Shown piece after piece: positions 43,856 through 61,264 of a stretch of DNA of 64,000 nucleotides; the stretch's first letter is position 1, and every line of letters starts with the position of its first letter. The notes below the pieces were generated by a model. It saw nothing but the letters and a program-made list of their open reading frames with translations, searched no databases and was not told the DNA's origin. Made by a program: the position numbers and the translations under genes. Origin of the DNA: Hoylesella pleuritidis JCM 14110 (lineage in GTDB: Bacteria; Bacteroidota; Bacteroidia; Bacteroidales; Bacteroidaceae); assembly GCF_000613725.1 (NCBI RefSeq), contig NZ_BAJN01000012.1, forward strand, positions 1-64,000, written 5' to 3'.

Positions 43856-44500
43856 ATGAAAAGCCTAATTATTATTGGAGCTGGAGGATATGCTAAATCT
43901 GTCTTAGATTCTGTAGATTATATGAACTTCAAGATGGAGGGTTTCCTTGATGATATAAAACCTATTGGGACAGAGCATCTTGGCTATCCTATAATAGGAA
44001 ATAAGGTCGAAGATATAGAGCATTATAAAAACTATGTATTCTTTGTTGCGATTGGAAATAATGCAAAACGAAAGTTGTGGTTTGAGAAATTAAAATTATA
44101 TGATCTATCACTCATTAATGTTATAGATCATTCGGCTATAGTATCTAAATATGCTACTATGGGAGAAGGATGTTTCGTGGGTAAACTTGCCATACTTAAT
44201 CATGGATGTATTGTAGGTGATAATTGTGTTGTTAATACGAGGGCTTTAGTAGAACATGGCTGCAATATTCATAATCATGTTAATTTATCTACTAATTCGA
44301 CACTTAACGGGGATGTTATTGTTGAAGAGGGAGGATTTATTGGTAGCGGGACCGTTATTAATGGACAAATCACAGTTGGTAAATGGGCATTAGTAGGTTC
44401 GGGAGCCGTGGTAATTCGTGATGTCAAGTCAAATACAACTGTCGTTGGTGTCCCAGCCAAAGAGATCATTTCAAATAGTCATAAATACAACTCTTTTTAA
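43856..44500 (+). CDS. neuD: NeuD-type sugar O-acyltransferase
   Basis: 214 residues. The N-terminal PglD/NeuD nucleotide-sugar-binding part starts SLIIIGAGGYAKSVLD, followed by a left-handed beta-helix of hexapeptide repeats (about 95-205: CIVGDNCVVNTRALVEHGCN, GGFIGSGTVINGQITVGKWA, VVGVPAKEI). His in ALVEHGCNIH is the probable catalytic base. In sialic acid clusters NeuD acetylates the sugar or aids NeuB. It heads neuD-neuB-neuA-neuC, 11 nt before neuB. Base composition is AT-rich from here on. Confidence 0.88.
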   Translation: MKSLIIIGAGGYAKSVLDSVDYMNFKMEGFLDDIKPIGTEHLGYPIIGNKVEDIEHYKNYVFFVAIGNNAKRKLWFEKLKLYDLSLINVIDHSAIVSKYATMGEGCFVGKLAILNHGCIVGDNCVVNTRALVEHGCNIHNHVNLSTNSTLNGDVIVEEGGFIGSGTVINGQITVGKWALVGSGAVVIRDVKSNTTVVGVPAKEIISNSHKYNSF

Positions 44501-44511
44501 AAATAAGAAAG

Positions 44512-45525
44512 ATGCAACATATTTATATTATTGCCGAAATAGGTTGTAATCATTGTGGTGATCCTATTCTTGCAAAAAAAATGGTTGAAAAGGCGAAATT
44601 GTGTGGTGTAGATGCCGTTAAATTTCAAACCTTTAAAGCCTCTGCGCTCATTTCAAAATATGCTCCTAAGGCAGATTATCAGAAAATCACTACAGGAGAA
44701 AATGAAAATCAACTTGAGATGACACGTAAATTGGAACTTCCTTTTGCTGATTATGAAAAATTAAGAGACTATGCTATTAGTTTAGGATTGGACGTATTCT
44801 CTACAGCATTTGATATGGAGTCTATTGATTTACTGGAGCAAAGTGGTCAATCCATTTGGAAGATACCTTCTGGTGAGATTACTAATTTACCGTATCTTGA
44901 AAGAATTGCTAAGATAAGGGTCACAGGTAAGAGAATCATTCTGTCAACAGGAATGTCAACAATAGATGAAATTCATCAGGCTGTAGATACAATATTGCAA
45001 TATGAAGTAAAAGAAAACCTTACAATCTTGCATTGTAATACTGAATATCCTACCCCGGATGAGGATGTCAATCTAAGTGCTATTGATACGCTACATCAAG
45101 AATTTCCTAATTTCAAAATAGGATTTTCAGACCACTCTATTGGAACTGTTGCAACAATTGGCGCATGTATGAAAAATATAGTTCTTATTGAAAAGCATTT
45201 TACATTAGATAAGAATCTTGAAGGACCAGATCATAAAGCGTCAGCTACTCCAGACGAACTTCTTCTGTTATGTGAATCGGTAAGGAGGATAGAAGTTATT
45301 GCGGGAGGGAATGGAAAACGAGTAACTGCATCTGAACGTAGAAATATCAATATTGCACGTAAGTCTATCGTTGCAAAAACAACCATTAGGAAAGGAGATA
45401 TTCTATCTGAAAACAACATTACTTGTAAACGGCCAGGTAACGGTGTTAGCCCTATGAAATGGTATGAGGTTTTGGGAACTAAGGCAATCAAAGACTTTAG
45501 TGAAGATCAACTCATAGAATATTAA
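44512..45525 (+). CDS. neuB: N-acetylneuraminate synthase NeuB
   Basis: Condenses phosphoenolpyruvate with N-acetylmannosamine (or a related amino sugar) to a nonulosonic acid. 337 residues. The N-terminal TIM barrel has YIIAEIGCNHCGDPILAKKM, DAVKFQTFKASAL and IPSGEITNLPYLE. The C-terminal SAF/antifreeze-like domain (about 275-335) starts RKSIVAKTTIRKGDILSENN. NeuB, LegI and PseI are hard to separate by eye; the neighbouring NeuC-type epimerase and absence of LegB/PseB-like genes favour Neu5Ac. It is 1 nt from neuA. Confidence 0.92.
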   Translation: MQHIYIIAEIGCNHCGDPILAKKMVEKAKLCGVDAVKFQTFKASALISKYAPKADYQKITTGENENQLEMTRKLELPFADYEKLRDYAISLGLDVFSTAFDMESIDLLEQSGQSIWKIPSGEITNLPYLERIAKIRVTGKRIILSTGMSTIDEIHQAVDTILQYEVKENLTILHCNTEYPTPDEDVNLSAIDTLHQEFPNFKIGFSDHSIGTVATIGACMKNIVLIEKHFTLDKNLEGPDHKASATPDELLLLCESVRRIEVIAGGNGKRVTASERRNINIARKSIVAKTTIRKGDILSENNITCKRPGNGVSPMKWYEVLGTKAIKDFSEDQLIEY

Positions 45526-45526
45526 A

Positions 45527-46225
45527 ATGAAGAGATTGGCAATAATACCAGCGAGATCTGGCAGCAAGGGACTTAAAGATAAGAATATTATTGAACTCTG
45601 TGGAAAACCGATGATTGCTTATTCAATTATCGCAGCAAAAGATAGTGGTCTCTTTGATAAAATATTAGTTTCTACAGATTCTACTTATTATGCTGAAATT
45701 GCAGAGTCATATGGTGCAGAGACGATACTGAGAGATGAGATACTTGCAAGTGATCAAGCGACTTCATTTATGGTTATTGAGGACGTGCTAAATAGACTAA
45801 ATGTCCGTTATGATTATTTTGCCTTGCTCCAACCTACATCTCCTCTACGTACAGCTAATCATATACAAGAAGCTGCAGCCAAATTTGAGGATAAATATGC
45901 AATTTTTGATTTCTTGGTATCTATGAAGAAGTTGGAGTTTAACAAAGATTTGGTAAATATGATTGACGAAGATGAAAGCCTTAAGTATTTTGACAAGGAC
46001 TTTTCCTGTTATCGTCGCCAAGGTTATTCTTATTATTCACCAAATGGAGCTATATTCATAGGGAAACCCGAAGCATACCTAAAGCACGGACATTTCTTTG
46101 GTGCACGGGCATTGTCCTATATTATGAGTGATATTGACTCTGTGGATGTCGATCATCCTATTGATTACGAACTTGCTAAGATTTTGATGGGAAAAAGGAT
46201 TATTCGTGAGAGTCTTTTCGATTGA
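45527..46225 (+). CDS. neuA: CMP-N-acetylneuraminate (acylneuraminate) cytidylyltransferase
   Basis: Activates the nonulosonic acid with CTP to the CMP-sugar used by sialyltransferases. 232 residues, the short single-domain type. Nucleotide-binding P-loop-like motif IIPARSGSKGLKDKNI (4-19), then PMIAYSI, STDSTYYAEIAESYGAE, FALLQPTSPLRTANHI and DVDHPIDYELA. It follows neuB by 1 nt and precedes neuC by about 140 nt without a gene. Confidence 0.93.
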   Translation: MKRLAIIPARSGSKGLKDKNIIELCGKPMIAYSIIAAKDSGLFDKILVSTDSTYYAEIAESYGAETILRDEILASDQATSFMVIEDVLNRLNVRYDYFALLQPTSPLRTANHIQEAAAKFEDKYAIFDFLVSMKKLEFNKDLVNMIDEDESLKYFDKDFSCYRRQGYSYYSPNGAIFIGKPEAYLKHGHFFGARALSYIMSDIDSVDVDHPIDYELAKILMGKRIIRESLFD

Positions 46226-46365
46226 GAATCTCAAAGAGGTCTGAATTCTGCCCATTATAGTTAGTATCTTTTCTTGGGTACAACAGTGATTATCCTTTAA
46301 TCTTTATTACGCATTGTGTATTATTAATAACTAGTATATTTTATAAAGAACGAAGGCTGAGATAT

Positions 46366-47535
46366 ATGCATAAATATAAAGTCTGTTTCGCAACAGGTTC
46401 AAGAGCTGATTATGGTATAGTAAGATCCTATCTTCGATTGCTGAACGAGGATGACTGTATCGATTTATCTATACTTATTACAGGCGCTTTATTGGATACT
46501 AAGTATGGTAAGGCGAAATCTATCATCCAAGATGACGGTTTTAATATTGGTTTTGAATGTCCTGTACCCTTAAAGGTTGAAAGATTATGTGATACGACAT
46601 TGACAATGTCTGCTGTACTTGATCAGTTCGGTAAATATTTTGAAGAAAACAGGTACGACTTGGTAATTATTCTTGGCGACAGATATGAAATCTTTTCCGT
46701 TGCTATCGCAGCTGCAATGCAACATCTACCTATTCTACATTTACATGGTGGAGAAATTACTTTGAGTAACTATGATGAATTCATACGGCATAGTATTACC
46801 AAGATGAGCCGATTCCATTTTACCTCTACTGAAGAATATAGAAATAGGGTAATACAATTAGGTGAAGAACCTTCAAGGGTGTTTAATTTGGGAGCGTTAG
46901 GAGCAGAGAATTGTCTCTTTATAGATATGGGACAGGTTAATGAAGACATTAAGCTACTGCCTGAAAAGAGATGTTTTACGGTGTTATTCCATCCAGAAAC
47001 ATTAAATGTACAGTCCCCACTTATCCAAGTAAATGAACTTTTAACCGCTATAGAGAAGTATTTGCCTAATTATGAATTTTGTTTTATAGGTTCAAACGCC
47101 GATACAAAATCAGATATTATTAGAGAAAGGATACAAGTATTTTGTGGGAATCATAAGCACACACGCTATTACGAAAACCTGCATCCTGATGCATATCATT
47201 ATTTAGTAAAAAAATCTATAGCATTGTTAGGTAATTCAAGTAGTGGAATTATTGAGGTACCATCACTAAACTCATTGACAATAAATATTGGTGATCGCCA
47301 AACAGGTCGTGTAAAAGGGAATAGCATTATTGATGTGCGCTGTAATACTAATGACATAATAAGGGGTATTGAAAAGGCCATAAATAGTGATCAAATGGTT
47401 ATAATAAATCCGTATTTAAAAGAGAATTCTACAAAGCTCTATTACGAAACGACAATTAAAATTTTAATGAGATCAATAAGTAGTAGGTATAAAAAAATTT
47501 TACGATTTAAAAATCGAATAATAATAGCCTTATGA
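46366..47535 (+). CDS. neuC: UDP-N-acetylglucosamine 2-epimerase, hydrolysing (NeuC)
   Basis: Makes ManNAc (with release of UDP) from UDP-GlcNAc, the substrate of NeuB. 389 residues of GT-B-like epimerase fold: CFATGSRADYGIVRSYLRLL, LVIILGDRYEIFSVAIAA, HGGEITLSNYDEFIRHSITK and LLGNSSSGIIEVPSLN. The RADYG start and GDRYE motif are typical of the hydrolysing NeuC/LegG group rather than the WecB type. The C-terminal 15 residues are basic and AT-rich coded. It is followed 11 nt later by the candidate sialyltransferase. Confidence 0.9.
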   Translation: MHKYKVCFATGSRADYGIVRSYLRLLNEDDCIDLSILITGALLDTKYGKAKSIIQDDGFNIGFECPVPLKVERLCDTTLTMSAVLDQFGKYFEENRYDLVIILGDRYEIFSVAIAAAMQHLPILHLHGGEITLSNYDEFIRHSITKMSRFHFTSTEEYRNRVIQLGEEPSRVFNLGALGAENCLFIDMGQVNEDIKLLPEKRCFTVLFHPETLNVQSPLIQVNELLTAIEKYLPNYEFCFIGSNADTKSDIIRERIQVFCGNHKHTRYYENLHPDAYHYLVKKSIALLGNSSSGIIEVPSLNSLTINIGDRQTGRVKGNSIIDVRCNTNDIIRGIEKAINSDQMVIINPYLKENSTKLYYETTIKILMRSISSRYKKILRFKNRIIIAL

Positions 47536-48441: not shown

Positions 48442-49699
48442 ATGGATAAGTTTATTGACAGACTCTTACATAATAAAACCATAAGAGATGGAGGAGTCTT
48501 TGCTTTCTTCTCTTTCCTAAATCAAGGACTCAATTTCTTCTTGTTAATCATCCTATCTTGGTATATACTTCCCGCTTCTTATGGTAAATTAAACTTGTTT
48601 TATACAAGTGTGAGCGTTGTTTCATTTGTCATCTGTTTATGCACATCGGGAATTGTTAGTATAAAGTATTTCAAGGTGACAAGGGAAATTTTGTCAAAAT
48701 ACATAAACGTTGTATTGTTAACAACCCTCATAATATCAGGTCTGTTACTGCTATCTATATCTTTTTTTTATCCATTTCTTACGAGGATTGCCAATATAGA
48801 ATTATCTATGCAGATATGGTGTGTCTATTTATGTGCTGTATCAGTGATGTATAATCTCTTGCTAGATATATATAGATTAGAAGAAAAATCAATTAAGTAT
48901 GGTGTTTTTACGATAATATCAACATTACTAAATATATGTGCATCTCTAATTTTAGTTGTCGCGTTAAAACAAGATTGGTATGGACGTGTTGAAGCTAATA
49001 TAATTACTTCAACAGCCTTTTTGTTTATAGGGATATATCTGCTTTTTAAGAAAAAATATTTAACCTTGGAAAAACCGACGAAGGAGATTTATAAGGAGAC
49101 ATTATCTTATGGAATTCCACTGATCCCACATAGCAGTAACGGTTTTCTCAGACAAGGAATGGATCGCTATATTATTAATTCACATTTTACATCGTCATCA
49201 GTCGGACTATTCAGTTTTGCTATTAATTTTGCCTTTATTATATATTCTGTAGGTTCTGCTTTCAATAAATCAAATTCTGTATATATATATAAGTCGTTAT
49301 CGTACGGACAAGAGGGTGTCAAGGCTAAATTGAGAAAGCAGACTGTCTATATACTAGTATTCTATTTAGGATTTTCTCTTCTACTTTGTATCTTATGCAG
49401 ACTTCTCATACCCATTCTTTTCCCTAATTATAAGGACTCTGTTATATATCTTTTCCCTCTTTGTATGAGCTGCTTCTTTCAATGTGTTTATTTGCAATTC
49501 TGTAATTTTTTTGTTTTATTTCAAAAAGACAAAAGAGTTGATGTATATGACAGTAGGAGTTTCGTTAGTGCATCTGCCTTTATCCTTATTGTTAACAAGA
49601 TATTCCGTGTTGTATGCAGCATATATTAGTATGTTGTCTTCTTTCATTGAGGCCTTGTTGGTATACGCATATTCACGCAAATTATATAAAATCATTTAG
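48442..49699 (+). CDS. wzx: Wzx-type oligosaccharide flippase, frameshifted near its 3' end at T7
   Basis: Polytopic membrane protein of the MATE/Wzx superfamily with about 12 predicted segments, starting VFAFFSFLNQGLNFFLLIIL. Conserved-looking GIPLIPHSSNGFLRQGMDRY is near residue 225 and FFQCVYLQFCNF near 350. The frame as sequenced ends at 49629 in unrelated residues. Dropping one T from the T7 run at 49506-49512 gives NFLFYFKKTKELMYMTVGVS and a normal C-terminus to 49699 (about 418 residues). It would flip the lipid-linked repeat unit across the inner membrane. It begins 3 nt after the restored stop of the preceding gene. Confidence 0.8.
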
Positions 49700-49714
49700 A
49701 ATGCATAGAAAACC

Positions 49715-50716
49715 ATGAAACAGGAAAGAGTACATTGGGTAGATATTGCAAAATGCTTATTAATAATCTGCGTAATAGTGTATCATATCCCTGTTTTTGC
49801 CGAACAAAATGGAGTTCACGGATTGGAATGGATGTATGGTATGAGACCTTTATTTCGGGCTTATTTTATGCCTGCATTTTTTGTGATAACAGGGTTTTGT
49901 AGTTTATTTAATGCTTCTTCTTTCTGGAGTTTTGCTTATAAGAACTTTAAACTTCTGATGATTCCTAATTTTCTACTTGTGGTTGGCACGCCAGTGAGTT
50001 CTTTTCTTTTAAGTAGAAATATGAACATTGTAGTTTATATCGAAGCAGTTAAGGACTTTTTTATTTCAGGAGGTTTTTGGTTTCTTACATCGCTTTTCTT
50101 TGCTAAGCTGGTATACTATGCAATGAAACGTTTCGGTAAATCAATGTTGTTATTAGGGGTGATGTCTTTGGGAATAATGGTTACAGGAATTATTCTTCAT
50201 GATATGGGAGTTCTTAATTTTTGGTGTTTTCAAAACACTTTGGTGCTCATCCCATTTCTCTGGATAGGTCAGCTGATATATAGGTATCAAGTAATGTTGT
50301 TTAGATTTAAGAATCTTATTATGCTAAGTTCTTTATATCCAATTGGGCTTTTATTGTTTTACTTGATATGTAAAGGTGATGAACCCTTTGTAACACTTCA
50401 CGTAACTGTTGGTATAAAAGAGCTTCCTGCATTCTTGATCTTAACGATATCTGGTACATTCCTTTGTTTTACGGTATCTAGATGGATTCCTCAAAACAAA
50501 GTAATGGAATACATTGGCAGGGAGTCTTTAACTATTTATCTTTTCCACATGTATTTTCTACTGAAGCTTTTACCCCATTTGTCAAACGTAATTGTTTCTG
50601 GTGTGATGAGGTGCGTTTCAGGTATCCTAATAGTAATTGCCACCCTTGTTTTCTGTACGATAGTTAATGTTATTCTGAATACTAAGTATCTTAAATGGGT
50701 ACTAGGTAAATTTTAA
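49715..50716 (+). CDS. membrane acyltransferase family 3
   Basis: 333 residues with about ten membrane helices. It starts with the acyltransferase-3 pattern VHWVDIAKCLLIICVIVYH (conserved His near residue 24), then YFMPAFFVITGFC. The C-terminal ESLTIYLFHMYFLLKLL block is also family-like. Such proteins O-acetylate or otherwise acylate glycans using cytoplasmic acyl-CoA. It is intact, unlike the second acyltransferase at 52569. It lies 15 nt after the flippase and 10 nt before a GT2 gene. Confidence 0.85.
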   Translation: MKQERVHWVDIAKCLLIICVIVYHIPVFAEQNGVHGLEWMYGMRPLFRAYFMPAFFVITGFCSLFNASSFWSFAYKNFKLLMIPNFLLVVGTPVSSFLLSRNMNIVVYIEAVKDFFISGGFWFLTSLFFAKLVYYAMKRFGKSMLLLGVMSLGIMVTGIILHDMGVLNFWCFQNTLVLIPFLWIGQLIYRYQVMLFRFKNLIMLSSLYPIGLLLFYLICKGDEPFVTLHVTVGIKELPAFLILTISGTFLCFTVSRWIPQNKVMEYIGRESLTIYLFHMYFLLKLLPHLSNVIVSGVMRCVSGILIVIATLVFCTIVNVILNTKYLKWVLGKF

Positions 50717-50726
50717 ACTTCTTGAA

Positions 50727-51608
50727 ATGGACGTTTCCGTAATTATAGTAAATTATAATACTAAAACTTTAACTTCAGACTGTATTGATAGTATTATAGA
50801 AAAGACTCAAGGAGTCGACTATGAAATAATTTTGGTGGATAATATGTCTGAGGATGGCTCAAAAGAGTTTTTTGAGAGTGATGAACGTTTATCAACATAC
50901 ATTTATAATAATACAAATTATGGTTTCGGTATTGCTAATAATATAGGGATGAAAGCGGCTAAAGGGAAGTATTTTTTTTTGCTTAATTCTGATACCTTAC
51001 TGGTCAACAATGCAATAAAGGAATTCTTCGATTATGCGGAGAAAAACGATGATGGTTCTGTATACGGTTGTTATCTTGTAGATAAAAATAATGCAGACAA
51101 TCTTTCATATTTTGATTTTCCGGCATTTACAGTATCTGAGTTTATCAAGAAAAGATTTTTCAGAACGTTAAAAAAAGAAGACTACTCAATTAAGTATGTT
51201 GAGGCGATAACGGGAGCGGATCTTTTTGTTCCACGGCGTACAATTGAATTGATTGGTGGTTTTAATCCTAATATCTTTTTATATGGTGAAGAGAGTGAAT
51301 TACAGTATAGAATGAAAAAGAAAGGAATAGCCCGGATTATTTTACCAATGCCTAAAATTATTCATTTTGGGAAACAAAGTATGACTTTCTCTGTTTTGAA
51401 GCAGGTGAAAATGCTGGATAGCAGTTTTACAGTTTTAAAGCTACATATGAATACACCGACTTATCTACTTGCAAGAATATATTATGCTGCAAATTATTCA
51501 TTGCGTGCTTTGTTATGTTTGCTGAATGGTCGGAATGGAGCAAAAGAGATATTCTTAGGAGCTTTCAGACGGGTGGAACTCAAAGATTACGATTTAAAAA
51601 TTCTATGA
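50727..51608 (+). CDS. glycosyltransferase family 2 (rhamnosyltransferase-like)
   Basis: 293 residues of GT-A fold: VSVIIVNYNTKTLTSDCIDS, EIILVDNMSEDGSKEFF, NTNYGFGIANNIGMKAAKGK, FFLLNSDTLL and a C-terminal acceptor region with GADLFVPRRTIELIGGFNPN and YGEESELQYRMKKKG. This is the WcaA/RfbF-like pattern of rhamnosyl- and related transferases. A T9 run (50972-50980) in frame codes YFFL and would truncate the gene if it changed length. Its stop overlaps the next start by ATGA (51605-51608). Confidence 0.88.
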   Translation: MDVSVIIVNYNTKTLTSDCIDSIIEKTQGVDYEIILVDNMSEDGSKEFFESDERLSTYIYNNTNYGFGIANNIGMKAAKGKYFFLLNSDTLLVNNAIKEFFDYAEKNDDGSVYGCYLVDKNNADNLSYFDFPAFTVSEFIKKRFFRTLKKEDYSIKYVEAITGADLFVPRRTIELIGGFNPNIFLYGEESELQYRMKKKGIARIILPMPKIIHFGKQSMTFSVLKQVKMLDSSFTVLKLHMNTPTYLLARIYYAANYSLRALLCLLNGRNGAKEIFLGAFRRVELKDYDLKIL

Positions 51609-52606
51609 GGATTAAATATTGGATAGCTTATTTCTTGGATTTATTTATTCGAGAACCGAGACTGATTCTAAAATATTACAGAACGTTTAGCTTTTCCCAA
51701 CGTAAGGTAGCTGGAGAGCGTTTGATTTTTATGGCTGATGGAAAATTTCCTCATGGGGGTATGTTCGATCGTTTGAAAGGAGCAGTCTCTGTATATGCAG
51801 TTTCTAAGGTCCAAGGAAAGGAGTTTAAATTGAACTTCTCTTCGCCTTTTAGTTTAGAAAGGTATTTAGAACCCAATCTATATGATTGGACTATTAATCA
51901 AACAGAACTAAATTATCATTATCCTTCGTCTCGTCCCCTTTTCTTATATGGGGAATGTCTGCATCCTTGCCGGCTTATTAAAGTTCGGAACTGTGAAGTA
52001 CATTTTTATTATGGTTATGACTCTCTTGATTATATAAATTCTAAGTATGATGTTGATTATGATTGGGGGAAACTGTATCATGAACTCTTCCGTCCTACCG
52101 CTTATTTGCAAAAATATATAGATTTTTATAAGAAAGATGTCGGAAAAGATTATGTTACGCTTCATTTTCGCTTCTTAAATCTTTTGGGTGATCGTACAGA
52201 ATTTGATATAAATCCCACTTTATGCACAGTGCGGCAACGTGAGTTGATGGATCTGTCTGTGGAAAAGATGAAATGTATAAAGGCAAAATATCCGTTTTAT
52301 CGAATAATGTTGGCTACGGATAGCAATCGTTTTACGGAATATGTCAGAGAACAGCTCCCTGATGTATATATCGTGCCAGGAGAGATACGCCATATTGGTA
52401 CAACCGACGAAACGAATGATACTGAAAATATAAAAATGTTTATAGACTACTATCTGATAGCGGGAGCCAAGAAAGTTTATAATATTGTTGGGCCCGGAAT
52501 GTGGAAAAGTGCATTCCCTAAGTATGCTGCAAAAATAGGAGGTGTAGAATTTGAAAGACTCATAATAAATGGAGACAGTGATAAAACAGAGGGTCTTATA
52601 TCTTGA
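51605..52606 (+). CDS. putative glycosyltransferase of unassigned family
   Basis: 333 residues from the ATG at 51605, which overlaps the GT2 stop; an in-frame start at 51515 would lie well inside GT2 and is rejected. No clear family is recognised. It is soluble apart from a hydrophobic N-terminus, with HGGMFDRLKGAVSVYAVSKV, KDYVTLHFRFLNLLGDRTEF and IMLATDSNRFTEYVREQLPD. These look like the GT-B-type fucosyltransferase-like proteins that carry an HxR motif and an S/TDS loop, so a sugar transferase role is inferred from this and from context. Its 3' end overlaps the next gene by 38 nt. Confidence 0.65.
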   Translation: MRIKYWIAYFLDLFIREPRLILKYYRTFSFSQRKVAGERLIFMADGKFPHGGMFDRLKGAVSVYAVSKVQGKEFKLNFSSPFSLERYLEPNLYDWTINQTELNYHYPSSRPLFLYGECLHPCRLIKVRNCEVHFYYGYDSLDYINSKYDVDYDWGKLYHELFRPTAYLQKYIDFYKKDVGKDYVTLHFRFLNLLGDRTEFDINPTLCTVRQRELMDLSVEKMKCIKAKYPFYRIMLATDSNRFTEYVREQLPDVYIVPGEIRHIGTTDETNDTENIKMFIDYYLIAGAKKVYNIVGPGMWKSAFPKYAAKIGGVEFERLIINGDSDKTEGLIS

Positions 52607-53583
52607 TGTTGTTAAGTTTGTTGCGATTACACTTGTTTGTATAGGGCATAGTTATCCTTTGACAATAGGTTATGAAAGTCATCTGAGGCCAATCATCTAT
52701 TCTTTTCACATGCCGTTGTTTATGCTTATCTGTGGATATTTTTCTGTATCTTCTTTTCAAAGAAACTTTAAATACTTCTTGAAGCAAAAGACAACACAAT
52801 TGTTAATTCCGGCTTTCTCCGGAATAATGCTATCACTTTGCTTGATGTTTATTCTTGCAAGTGAAAGTATTTTCTTGTCTACCGTTGTCGCTGAATTATA
52901 TGGAGGGCTATGGTTTTTAAAGACCCTATTTATTTGTTATCTGATCGTTTACGTTTTCAAAAGATTTTATTTGCCAGACTGGTTTGCCTGTCTTAGTTCG
53001 ATAATCCTTTTTCTAATTCTTCCATACGGAGGGACATTACAAGTGAATTTTCTACTTATAATGTTTTGGATGGGTTATTTTGTTAATAAGAGTAAATGTG
53101 CGGGGGGGGGGTAATTGCAAATTACTATTAACGTCAATGTCGCTATTACTATTTATACTCGTAATATATATTGGTATGGCTCAGCCTGTGCAACAAATTA
53201 CATCAGAAGTCATATTTACTCATCCTTTAGATTTGGTTCGTCAATTTTTTGTAGGTATTGCAGGTTCAATCTCTATGATTGGTATTATCTATTATATATG
53301 TAGAAAAACACCGGTAAATAGTACTTTTTATAAAATTCTTACATGGTTGGGGACTGTCGGGCGTTATACTTTGGGAATTTATGTTGTTCAGACGTTACTT
53401 TTAGAGCGTCTGTTTTATACACTATGTCCAAAGATTAATCATTTTGCATCATATACTCTGATTGATTTTGTTTTTACACCAATAATTGGTATTGCCTTTT
53501 CTTTTTTATCATACTATACTGTTTTATTTTTGAAAAAGAATAGGTATATGAATTTACTGTTATTTGGAGGAAGTTATAAATAG
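52569..53583 (+). CDS. phase-variable membrane acyltransferase family 3, OFF in this sequence (G10 tract)
   Basis: The first frame gives 181 residues: LYLDVVKFVAITLVCIGHSY (conserved His27), YSFHMPLFMLICGYF, ELYGGLWFLKTLFICYL, then KCAGGG and a stop immediately after ten G (53102-53111). A second frame from the tract to 53583 encodes the remaining membrane helices, including VGRYTLGIYVVQTLLLERLF, typical of the family C-terminus. Removing one G (G9) or adding two (G12) joins them into about 337 residues, the normal length. The protein would acylate the locus glycan. An assembly error in the homopolymer is the alternative. It overlaps the preceding gene by 38 nt. Confidence 0.8.
53102..53111 (+). 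repeat. poly-G tract (G10) inside the acyltransferase gene
   Basis: Ten consecutive G, flanked by TGTGC and TAATTG. The longest G run noticed in the window; its length sets the reading frame of the acyltransferase. Confidence 0.9.
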
Positions 53584-54849
53584 ATGAAAATCATATTAAT
53601 ATCAAATATGACACCTTATCGGGAGAATTTTAACGGAACATCTGCTCTCCCTTATCATCTGCTTTATCGCCGTAATGCAGGGACGGAAAGTACGAATATT
53701 GCTATCGATTCAGAGTCTTGCGATACGCAGAAGGAAAAAATCGAAGTTGAAGTCTATTCATTTAATATTAATAGATTACCTGACGAGAAGATTCGTGAAG
53801 CAGAAAAAGAATTGGGGATAAAGATTCATATTATGCCTTTGTCAAGGTGGTTTGTATTCCTTTTTAAGTTCCATTTACTTTTCTTTCGTTTATTCTTAAA
53901 GTATCCTTTACACTATTATTTGAAATTATCTCCGTTCTATATAAAAGAGATTGAGAGGTTGCATCCGGATGGAATATGGGTATATGGAGAAGAAATGTCT
54001 CGTGTTATAAACCAATTCTCTGGTTTGAAACGTGTACATACAACAGTAGATTGTACTTCTTTATATTATCACAGATTGTTGAAATCCGGGTTACTGTATG
54101 GTTGTGCAGATAGACTGAAAGCTAAAATTAACTACCGTAAATTTTATAGACTTGAAGAACATTATTTGAATGGCAAAGACGTGAAATACCATTTGGTCGG
54201 GCAGGCAGACCGTGATTTCCTTGTGGATCATAATTCCGAATTACAGGCCTATTTTATCAGGCATCCCCATTATGAGGTCGTTGATAGTGCTGAAAACAGA
54301 GAGTTTCATACTTCCATACGTTTGCTCATAGCAGGACAATGTAATCTATATATGCAACGAGATACAGAAGAATTGGTAAAAGAACTGTGTCTTTTCAGTG
54401 ATGTATTATCCGATGGGGGAGATATTCGTGATTGCTATGAGTTGCTGTTTTTAGGAAAGGGTTGGGAACAATCCGTAGAAATTTTAGAGACGAGCGGATG
54501 GAAGGTTAAGCATATTCGGTTTGCACCAGATTATATTAAGGAGATCAAAAAACACGATATTCAGCTTACACCGATATCTATCGGCACGGGTACAAAGGGA
54601 AAAGTGCTCGATGCCATTGCCAACGGATTGCTTGTGATAGGTACCCCCTATGCTTTAGAAAATATTGCCGTAAAATCCGGAGAGTCGTGCATTGAATACC
54701 ATTCTACGGCTGAAGCCATAGACATTTTACGGAAAATTCCAATGGAAAGGAAAAAATATGAACAGATAGCCGAACAAGGAAGAGAAGCTGTATGCCGATA
54801 TCATAGTCGTAAATTAATTTCCGAACAACTCTTTAATTTATTTAAATAG
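53584..54849 (+). CDS. glycosyltransferase, GT-B fold (GT4-like)
   Basis: 421 residues. The N-terminal half begins MKIILISNMTPYRENFNGTS. The C-terminal half has IRLLIAGQCNLYMQRDTEEL, LLFLGKGWEQSVEIL and a donor-binding-like segment IQLTPISIGTGTKGKVLDAI followed by ANGLLVIGTPYALENI. The pattern is a distant GT4/GT1-type transferase. No membrane anchor apart from a hydrophobic patch (WFVFLFKFHLLFFRLFL, about residue 85-105) that could attach it to the membrane. It starts right after the acyltransferase stop and is followed by the polymerase gene after 5 nt. Confidence 0.8.
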   Translation: MKIILISNMTPYRENFNGTSALPYHLLYRRNAGTESTNIAIDSESCDTQKEKIEVEVYSFNINRLPDEKIREAEKELGIKIHIMPLSRWFVFLFKFHLLFFRLFLKYPLHYYLKLSPFYIKEIERLHPDGIWVYGEEMSRVINQFSGLKRVHTTVDCTSLYYHRLLKSGLLYGCADRLKAKINYRKFYRLEEHYLNGKDVKYHLVGQADRDFLVDHNSELQAYFIRHPHYEVVDSAENREFHTSIRLLIAGQCNLYMQRDTEELVKELCLFSDVLSDGGDIRDCYELLFLGKGWEQSVEILETSGWKVKHIRFAPDYIKEIKKHDIQLTPISIGTGTKGKVLDAIANGLLVIGTPYALENIAVKSGESCIEYHSTAEAIDILRKIPMERKKYEQIAEQGREAVCRYHSRKLISEQLFNLFK

Positions 54850-58129: not shown

Positions 58130-59991
58130 ATGACGAAAGTAACACTTATTCGGAAAGGCCAGAGAATCCCGACTTATATCCGTATAGATCTGAAAAGTCT
58201 ATACCAAGACATTCGTTCGGGAGCTTATCTTAATATGGTTGAGCAGGTGAGGGAAGACTATCCTCTCACGCTGCTTCATAATGGTTGGAAGCTGACAGAT
58301 ATGGAACGGCTGGATAAAGTACCCCGTATCTGTTTTGCCTGTGAATGGCGTAAAAAGAGAAATCAGGCTTCTATTGATGCATTCAATGGATTGATTTTAT
58401 TGGAAATCAATAGTTTGGCTGATATGGATGATGTGCAGAGTATTCGTACAAAAGCGGCGCAGATTCCTTATTCGCTGTTGACTTTTATTGGTGCGACGGA
58501 ACATTCCGTTAAGATCATCTGTCAGGCACAGCGTCCTGACGGTTCGTTGCCGGCGACCCGGGAAGAGCGTGAAACATTTTTGGTTGAAGCTTACGACAAG
58601 TTGCATTATATTTACAGCACCCAGTTGCAGATGACGGTGGATAATATTAAGCCGCAATTAGACTCTTCCTGCTATGTCTCTGTTGATGAGGGGGCTATAC
58701 TAACGGATAATGCCGTTCCGATCATCGTAACCGTAGCACCCCGCACCCCGCACTTGCACCATACTGAAATGAAAGTAAGCAGTAAGGAACTTCCATTATT
58801 TAAGGATAGGGGAGAAGCTGAAACTCAGCGATTATTATTCCATTATTGTTTGTTGGATGCGTTGAATGATACGCGTCTTGAAAAAGGTGACGATGCAGAA
58901 GAGAAAGTGTTGAATGTCTTGGCCAAATATTGCTGTGAGTCGGGATTGCCGATGGCAATGTGTATGAGGCTGATCAAGTATAATCCGGACTATGGACGTG
59001 ATGATTTGCTCGTGGAAAATATCTTCACTGCGGTTTATCATAAAAAGCTCATCAAGATATATCCCTATTTATGATCCGATTGATGACTATCTCTCTCATC
59101 TTCCTAAATGGGATGGGGGCGAGCGGGTGGAAGAGTTAGCGAAAAGAATACCTACTGACAATGGAAATTTTGCGCATTGTTTTCATATTTGGATGTTATC
59201 GATGGTAGCCCATTGGATGGGGCGGATGTCGAGTCAGGCCAATGCTCTCGTACCTTTGCTGATCGGTTCACAAGGATGCGGCAAGAGTTCTTTCTGCGCA
59301 GCTTTGCTGCCCGACGAACTTCAACCTTATTATAACGATCGCATTGATTTTCGCAATGAAACTTCGATGCTGATGGGACTTACCAATTTTGCGTTGATCA
59401 ACATTGATGAGTTCGACTCGGTGAGTCGGGGTAAGCAGCCGCTGTTGAAATATCTTATCTCTACTCCGGCTGTCAAAATGCGAATGCCCTATCAGACGAG
59501 TATCTCAAATCGCCGTTGCTATGCCAGTTTTATTGCTACGACTAATAGCCGAAAGCCATTAAAGGATCTGACGGGGAGCCGGAGGTTTCTGTGTGTAGAG
59601 ATCAATGGAAATATTGATTTTCTTTCTCCAATTGATTATGGTCAATTGTATGCACAGTTGGTAGAAGAGATTGCTGCGGGGGCCCGCTTCTATTTTAATG
59701 AAGAGGAGACACGTGGATAATGGAAATGAATCAGCGCGTTTCGTTGACATTGATGATTTAGAGTTGCTGATTGACAGTCTGTTCCGTAAACCCAATGGGA
59801 CGGATGATTTCAAAGAAGTGTCATTGCCGGAAGTCGTTGAGCTTCTCAAACCGTATGATAAGCAACTGCGAGGTAATCGCCAAGACCTGATCAGAATCGG
59901 TCGAATCCTCCGGATGAAAGGATTTGAAGTAAAGCGTACAGCCACGGGTATGAAATATAAGGTGATTAACGGTGAATCGGTGGCCATTTAA
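58130..59991 (+). pseudogene. VirE/BT4734-like primase-helicase-type protein, broken by two frameshifts
   Basis: Three frames follow each other. 58130-59074 encodes a BT4734-like N-terminal domain (RIPTYIRIDLKSLYQDIRSG; a PrimPol-like fold is likely). The second covers about 59050-59720 and carries the VirE/VapE P-loop ATPase: Walker A LIGSQGCGKSSFCAAL, Walker B ALINIDEFDS, and TGSRRFLCVEI. The third runs to 59991 with a C-terminal DNA-binding-like tail (KEVSLPEVVELLKPYDKQLR). One base too many in the A5 run at 59042-59046 and another near 59706-59716 would explain the breaks; corrected length is about 619 residues. Such genes are common in Bacteroides, often beside capsule loci or on mobile DNA; their role is unknown. 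Confidence 0.8.
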
Positions 59992-60023: not shown

Positions 60024-60113
60024 TAGTATGGATGTATATATATAGCATTGCGTAAAGTGCTGAATTACAATGCACTTTTTGTTAAATGTAGGTGTGTAGG
60101 AGAATTTGGATTT

Positions 60114-61264
60114 ATGGATTATAATAAGAAAAATATCTTACATGTAGTAAACATTTATTTCGTAATACCTTATTTTATAGGCGGCCAGTTCAGGTATTTC
60201 CGCCAAAAGGGATACAATCTGCATGTGGTATGTTCCCCGAGTTGTTATCTGAAAGACTATGCCAAGGAGCAGAATTTCGATTATCGGGAGATACCGGTAC
60301 TGCGGTCGATCGCTCCGTTACAGGACATTAAGTCTATTATACATATCTGTCGATACATCAAGGAGAAGGACATCGGCATCGTAGTAGGGCATACCCCCAA
60401 GGAGGATTGCTTGCTATGCTTGCCGGATGGCTGATGCGTGTGCCGCAACGCATCTATTTTCGCCACGGGCTGGTATACCAGACGGCGAAAGGGCTCAAGC
60501 GATTTATCTTGATAACGGTAGATCGAATAGCCTCGCGCTTGGCAACAAAGATTGTTTGTGTTAGTCCCTCAGTTTTGCAGCATAGTATAGAAGACCGCTT
60601 GGCACCTGCACGCAAGCAGCTTATTTTGGGCAAAGGCACCTGCTCGGGTATCGATACGCAGGGCAAATTCAATCCTGCAAATATAAACGCTCGTAAACTG
60701 TCGGAGATGAAAAGACAGTGGGGAATAGCCGAAAGCGATTGGGTTATAGGCTATACAGGCCGACTTGTGAGAGATAAAGGTATTATCGAACTGGTTGAGG
60801 CTTTCAGAATACTGAAAGAGTATGATCCTCGTTTCAAGCTTCTGTTGGTGGGTATGTTCGAGATAAGGGATGCCCTACCCGAAGATGTGCAGCAGGATAT
60901 CAGGAATGATCCGCAGATTGTGTGGACTGATTTCCAGAATGTAGATATGGAATACTTTTATTCTATGATGAACGTCTATGTGCTTGCGAGCTATAGAGAG
61001 GGCTTCCCAACGGGTGTACTCGAGGCTCAATCGATGGAAGTTCCTGTGGTTACAACCAGAGTAACGGGCTGTTGCGACTCGATACAAGAAGGGGTGACGG
61101 GTTTATTTGTACAACATAATGCTCGCGAGTTGGCAGCCTGCGTTTTTAAAATACGCGACGGAAAGACTGAAATATCGGGAGCCCAGGCGCGCGCCTGGGT
61201 GGTAGACAATTTCGATAACCTGAAAGTATGGCGAGAAATCGAGAAGTTATTCGAAGATAAATAA
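60114..61264 (+). pseudogene. glycosyltransferase family 4, split by a one-base frameshift
   Basis: The first frame (60114-60434) gives the N-terminal GT-B start ILHVVNIYFVIPYFIGGQFR and IGIVVGHTPKE. The second (to 61264) continues LAMLAGWLMRVPQRIYFRHG, TKIVCVSPSVLQHSI, VIGYTGRLVRDKGIIELVEA and NVYVLASYREGFPTGVLEAQ. At 60399-60407 AAGGAGGATT reads as KED; one more G would give PKGGLLAMLAG and rejoin the frames, about 383 residues. It is WbpL-cluster-like in context: an epimerase and initiating transferase follow. The start at 60114 (MDYNKKNI) is preferred over an in-frame start at 60048. Confidence 0.82.

Follow-up and report, generated by a model that had tools for sequence, protein, structure and literature searches.

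A poly-G tract at the break of an AT3 acyltransferase gene in a Hoylesella pleuritidis glycan locus, a probable site of slipped-strand phase variation

The window, i.e., the whole stretch of 64,000 nucleotides of Hoylesella pleuritidis JCM 14110 DNA that was analysed, contains a glycan locus in which one of two acyltransferase-3 (AT3) genes is split. The features of interest are the following:

43856–47535, forward strand: sialic-acid-type genes, NeuD, NeuB, NeuA/PseF-like and NeuC (NCBIfam)
48442–49629, forward strand: flippase (PF01943, E 1.2e-8)
49715–50716, forward strand: another AT3 acyltransferase, the second in the locus, with an open frame (PF01757, E 5.7e-21)
51515–52606, forward strand: upstream gene without a Pfam or NCBIfam match, overlapping the AT3 start by 38 bases
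52569–53114, forward strand: N-terminal half of the AT3 acyltransferase, 181 aa, with a TAA stop at 53112–53114
53102–53111, forward strand: G10 tract, the proposed slippage site, as read from the sequence; the only G10 of the assembly
53112–53583, forward strand: C-terminal AT3 half, in a different open frame, with a TAG at 53581–53583
53584–54849, forward strand: downstream glycosyltransferase (PF13524), directly 3′ of the AT3 stop codon
54855–55997, forward strand: EpsG-type polymerase (PF14897, E 4e-41)

In the sialic-acid-type cluster, NeuD, NeuB and NeuC scored over the NCBIfam cut-offs and the PseF-like cytidylyltransferase below. The locus also carries further glycosyltransferases and a PF00953 enzyme, and its likely product is a sialic-acid-containing surface polysaccharide. 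Homologues of the downstream glycosyltransferase were found in loci L006, L007, L009 and L011; in the first three, an AT3 homologue occurs together with relatives of both this glycosyltransferase and EpsG, and in L006 the glycosyltransferase lies directly 3′ of the AT3 gene, as in the window. By eye, the flippase ORF appears to end early (49530–49700), while a different frame goes on with a membrane-like segment.

Bases 53100–53114 read gc, ten G and taa, confirming the statement of the first-pass annotation that the frame stops directly after the tract: the ORF 52569–53114 is terminated by the TAA immediately 3′ of G10. The second half of the protein, which the same annotation had described as intact in another frame, indeed remains open up to the TAG at 53581–53583 without any further stop. 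The N half matched PF01757 (Acyl_transf_3) over the Pfam cut-off (E 1.9e-19; 70.3 bits versus a cut-off of 31). For the C half, Pfam returned DUF418 alone (E 2.1e-6), PF01757 being below its cut-off, and membership of the family was established with an AT3 profile built in this analysis, on which the N half covers positions 1–175 and the C half positions 184–332, with the junction at the tract. The five closest homologues (L005–L008 and L011) are uninterrupted at the tract site and 321–337 aa long, in agreement with the normal length of about 337 residues that had been predicted.

AT3 proteins are described as carrying acyl groups over the membrane onto surface sugars (PMC9833829, PMC9558356), and in OafB-type members the first helix is said to bear an R-X10-H motif (PMC9833829). 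The window protein has K16-X10-H27 in its place; across 22 homologues the K is invariant and the H nearly invariant. As judged from these residues, the window gene is a PF01757 protein that is not of the OafB type, having K for R in the motif. For L005, an intact homologue, a structure model (pLDDT 89.5) gave no match at E ≤0.001 in a fold search against the PDB, the best one being a weak match to human HGSNAT (E 0.035, TM 0.46 by query). According to the alignment and this model, the tract would fall at L005 residues 171–177, between the predicted helices 155–170 and 179–198.

The window gene has the makeup of a contingency locus, in that a repeat lies within the ORF, the repeat length sets the frame, and both halves are intact. 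It counts against a switch that a G tract at this site is absent from all five closest homologues. In the alignment, the tract nearest to the window's site is the G8 of L305, placed in the same loop 3–4 codons off. Among 40 relatives searched, no same-species copy of the gene was found.

Apart from G10, no G or C run in the window is longer than 6, and the assembly (2.56 Mb in 49 contigs) has no second G10. A first-order model derived from the window predicts, per 2.56 Mb, about 0.50 G runs and 0.14 C runs of at least 10, i.e., about 0.6 in all; hence a lone G10 is unremarkable and proves little, and what matters is its location inside an AT3 gene. Runs of G or C of at least 8 numbered 4 in the assembly, versus about 14 predicted from the window composition. 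Elsewhere in the same genome we noticed a C9 run within a histidine-kinase ORF (contig C42, L194:2946), another possible slip site, and a second broken AT3 gene (C41:102625–103655, L189), which is devoid of a G tract. In the window (53112), as well as in L024, L254, L259, L031 and L305, the tract is directly followed by TAA or TGA, meaning that one shifted frame ends immediately; chance is not accounted for in this observation.

Frameshifts are also present at 58–61 kb of the window. A glycosyltransferase gene (60048–61264, with a C5 stretch around 60391 nearby) lies in two frames and is continuous in L251, and a BT4734-like/VapE/DUF3874 gene (58130–59991) lies in three frames and is continuous in L268. 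As these interruptions are not at homopolymers, either decay or indel error is possible in that part of the window. One could accordingly picture the AT3 gene as dead, an unselected member of a decaying part of the locus whose run gained a base, so that the run would be mutation-prone, the state fixed, and no switch would exist. The second broken AT3 gene on C41 fits with such decay; however, both halves of the window gene still match the profile in full and contain no further stop, and we regard this explanation as unlikely.

An error of sequencing or assembly is, in our opinion, quite unlikely. The true run would then be of a different length and the gene intact in the isolate, a plausible thought given that homopolymers are error-prone and that the further frameshifts at 58–61 kb could have the same origin. 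On the other hand, ORFs of 856–1284 aa are intact in the first 37 kb of the window, and the tract itself would stand whatever its length.

The occurrence of tracts in AT3 genes at large was assessed on 158 loci, in which AT3 genes make up 10% of the ORF DNA. Sample A consisted of 80 loci retrieved by similarity to the N half and chosen blind to tracts; sample B of 80 regions around AT3 matches (78 after dropping two duplicates), half from the genus and half order-wide. Overall, G or C runs of at least 8 were found 13 times in AT3 genes, 9 times in other ORFs and 5 times elsewhere (p 2.3e-8 with respect to the AT3 share of coding DNA). The corresponding counts were 8, 7 and 3 for sample A and 5, 2 and 2 for sample B. 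For runs of at least 9, AT3 genes accounted for 6 of 12 in sample A and for 1 of 4 in sample B, the latter not significant on its own.

The excess was not evenly distributed. All five AT3 runs of at least 8 in sample B came from its genus half, the order-wide half contributing none, and no run of at least 10 was listed anywhere in this sample. In sample A, query-matched AT3 genes carried a run in 7 of 47 Bacteroidales loci versus 0 of 33 others (p 0.02). In a third set, made up of 34 loci fetched with short flanks, AT3 genes represent 31% of the DNA and held 3 of the 5 runs of at least 8, which is not significant, and no run of at least 9. A genus-wide survey detected G10 in 108 of 200 genomes, but mostly outside AT3 genes, and in many cases at the end of a contig or not within a long ORF, which counts against a switch; with a narrow first AT3 profile, just one AT3 gene (L090, the same as L205) besides the window's was recognized among 69 loci. 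The AT3 excess is consequently valid in comparison with other genes but not with DNA as a whole.

Base-composition chance was rejected as a cause of the excess, on account of the above counts by gene class and of synonymous shuffles. In AT3 genes, 15 runs were seen versus a mean of 3.6 and a largest value of 8 in 60 shuffles (the 15 were counted over ORF pieces, so the tract of a broken gene may count twice), whereas other ORFs had 9 runs, 20 shuffles giving a mean of 16. Other genes thus tend to avoid long runs, and AT3 genes do not.

A glycine-rich protein motif was likewise rejected as the reason for the tracts, based on codon usage. AT3 proteins contain Gly-Gly-Gly about as often as other proteins do, but it was coded by at least 8 G in 10 of 18 AT3 instances versus 2 of 184 elsewhere (overlapping windows counted). 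When distinct AT3 places were considered, the proportion was 7 of 14 (p 5e-8).

We then tallied the state of all AT3 genes met in the analysis whose coding strand has at least 9 consecutive G; these do not constitute a random sample. The frame was broken at the tract in 4 of 9, namely the window gene (G10), L014 (G10), L024 (G12) and L302 (G9), and continued across it in L038 (G9), L069 (G12), L205 (G10), L297 (G9) and L203 (G9, with a stop upstream). All 12 AT3 genes with G8 that we met were in frame, as were all four with coding-strand C runs of 8–9. A hexapeptide-transferase gene that lies shortly after the G12 AT3 gene of L024 is broken as well, and a G9 run (L024 position 7422) occupies the break.

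Tract length also differed between close relatives. The genes of L038 (Alistipes MAG, G9) and L069 (Bacteroides MAG, G12) are 91% identical and both open. L297 (G9) and L295, with 93% identity, differ by three bases in the tract, which in L295 is the shorter one and is interrupted; L295 carries a frameshift of its own, at another place and without a tract. Fifteen homologues of the window gene were collected from 398 genomes (three were already in sample A), and four Prevotella genes among these have G8 or G9: L297 (G9, open), L302 (G9, shifted), L305 (G8) and L306 (G8). Two others, L303 and L308, have G7. The latter, whose sequence is the same as that of L009, contains two frame changes and was not counted as an OFF form, since it may reflect an old sequencing problem. 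The L299 homologue, with an open frame of 602 aa, contains a large insertion that keeps the frame, near position 160 of the profile. Another AT3 clade keeps a G8 at a single site: 4 of 5 matches, counting the query, have it, and so does Bacteroides L082. A run of exactly G8 in this clade does not look variable, which counts against a switch.

The breaks at tracts recur in independent assemblies, contrary to what an assembly error would predict, and they concern unrelated AT3 genes, which together with the tract excess argues against a gene that is simply dead. Long homopolymers can also slip during transcription, and one might suppose that slippage of RNA polymerase or of the ribosome yields some full-length protein from G10, the run tuning the level of expression with no DNA switch. 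We deem such recoding highly improbable, because the in-frame G8 genes need none and tract lengths differ between relatives.

The reading best supported by the AT3 tract excess, by the breaks exactly at tracts and by the length differences between close relatives is that of a switch, and we believe that the window gene is probably a contingency locus for slipped-strand, phase-variable acylation, captured OFF, as the first-pass annotation had suggested. The part of that proposal that concerns this very site is weakened by the five tract-free homologues and by the two frameshifted genes nearby. The product of 52569–53583 would be a membrane acyltransferase that decorates the locus glycan with acyl groups, probably acetyl. 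Slipped-strand mispairing at the G tract would alter its length, multiples of three allowing read-through and other lengths leading to a stop at or soon after the tract, and the assembly would represent the OFF form. The same arrangement seems to have arisen repeatedly, at different places of the protein, in Prevotella and other Bacteroidales. We infer the rate and reversibility of slippage, as well as the acylation of the locus glycan; the benefit might be escape from phages or antibodies, and an effect on the downstream glycosyltransferase is conceivable.

Bacteroidales are known for invertible promoters. Beside promoter inversion, a poly-G phasome, widespread and with AT3 acyltransferases at its centre, could constitute a second layer of surface variation, with tracts arising repeatedly at different places of the genes, being kept as DNA in some clades (G8), and toggling glycan acylation gene by gene. 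We give this broader proposal an even chance.

The repeat of Haemophilus influenzae oafA is a tetranucleotide, and the window gene has a G run inside the gene instead. OafA belongs to another phylum and acts on LOS, but, like the window protein, it is an AT3 protein acylating a surface glycan, and its on/off switching is described as governing LOS O-acetylation (PMC9558356, PMC11868660); phase variation precedents among AT3 proteins thus exist (PMC9558356). In Escherichia coli K1, repeat number switches the frame of neuO, an acetyltransferase gene for a sialic-acid glycan, polysialic acid (PMC13001214). However, neuO is reported to be phage-borne, to have a heptanucleotide repeat near its 5′ end and not to encode an AT3 protein (PMC13001214, PMC9558356), whereas the window gene has a G run in a PF01757 protein.

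A closer taxonomic parallel is PS locus I/9 of Bacteroides fragilis (Patrick et al. 2010), a Bacteroidales polysaccharide locus where one additional C within a run shifts the frame of an acetyltransferase-related gene and slippage was suggested (PMC3090145). That run has only four C, and the portion of the report available describes a strain-to-strain difference, with no family-wide pattern. The poly-G contingency genes of Campylobacter, Helicobacter and Neisseria share with the window gene frame-switching G runs in surface-glycan genes, although these organisms belong to other phyla and switching has been measured there, whereas the window is known from sequence alone. A review cautions against applying the term phase variation to slip-prone runs for which reversal has yet to be shown (PMC11868660). 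In the open-licence literature we found no published account of poly-G switching of AT3 genes in Bacteroidales; hence, while the mechanism and an AT3 precedent (oafA) are already known, the AT3-wide recurrence of poly-G in this order was not found there.

If the switch is real, what these bacteria display on their surface would be understated by a single genome sequence. Recognition by phages and antibodies can change with acylation, and acylation would switch among the cells of one clone in a manner invisible to searches for invertible promoters. In many cases, an AT3 gene annotated as broken would be an OFF form, and the AT3 tracts would provide a ready list of testable switches.
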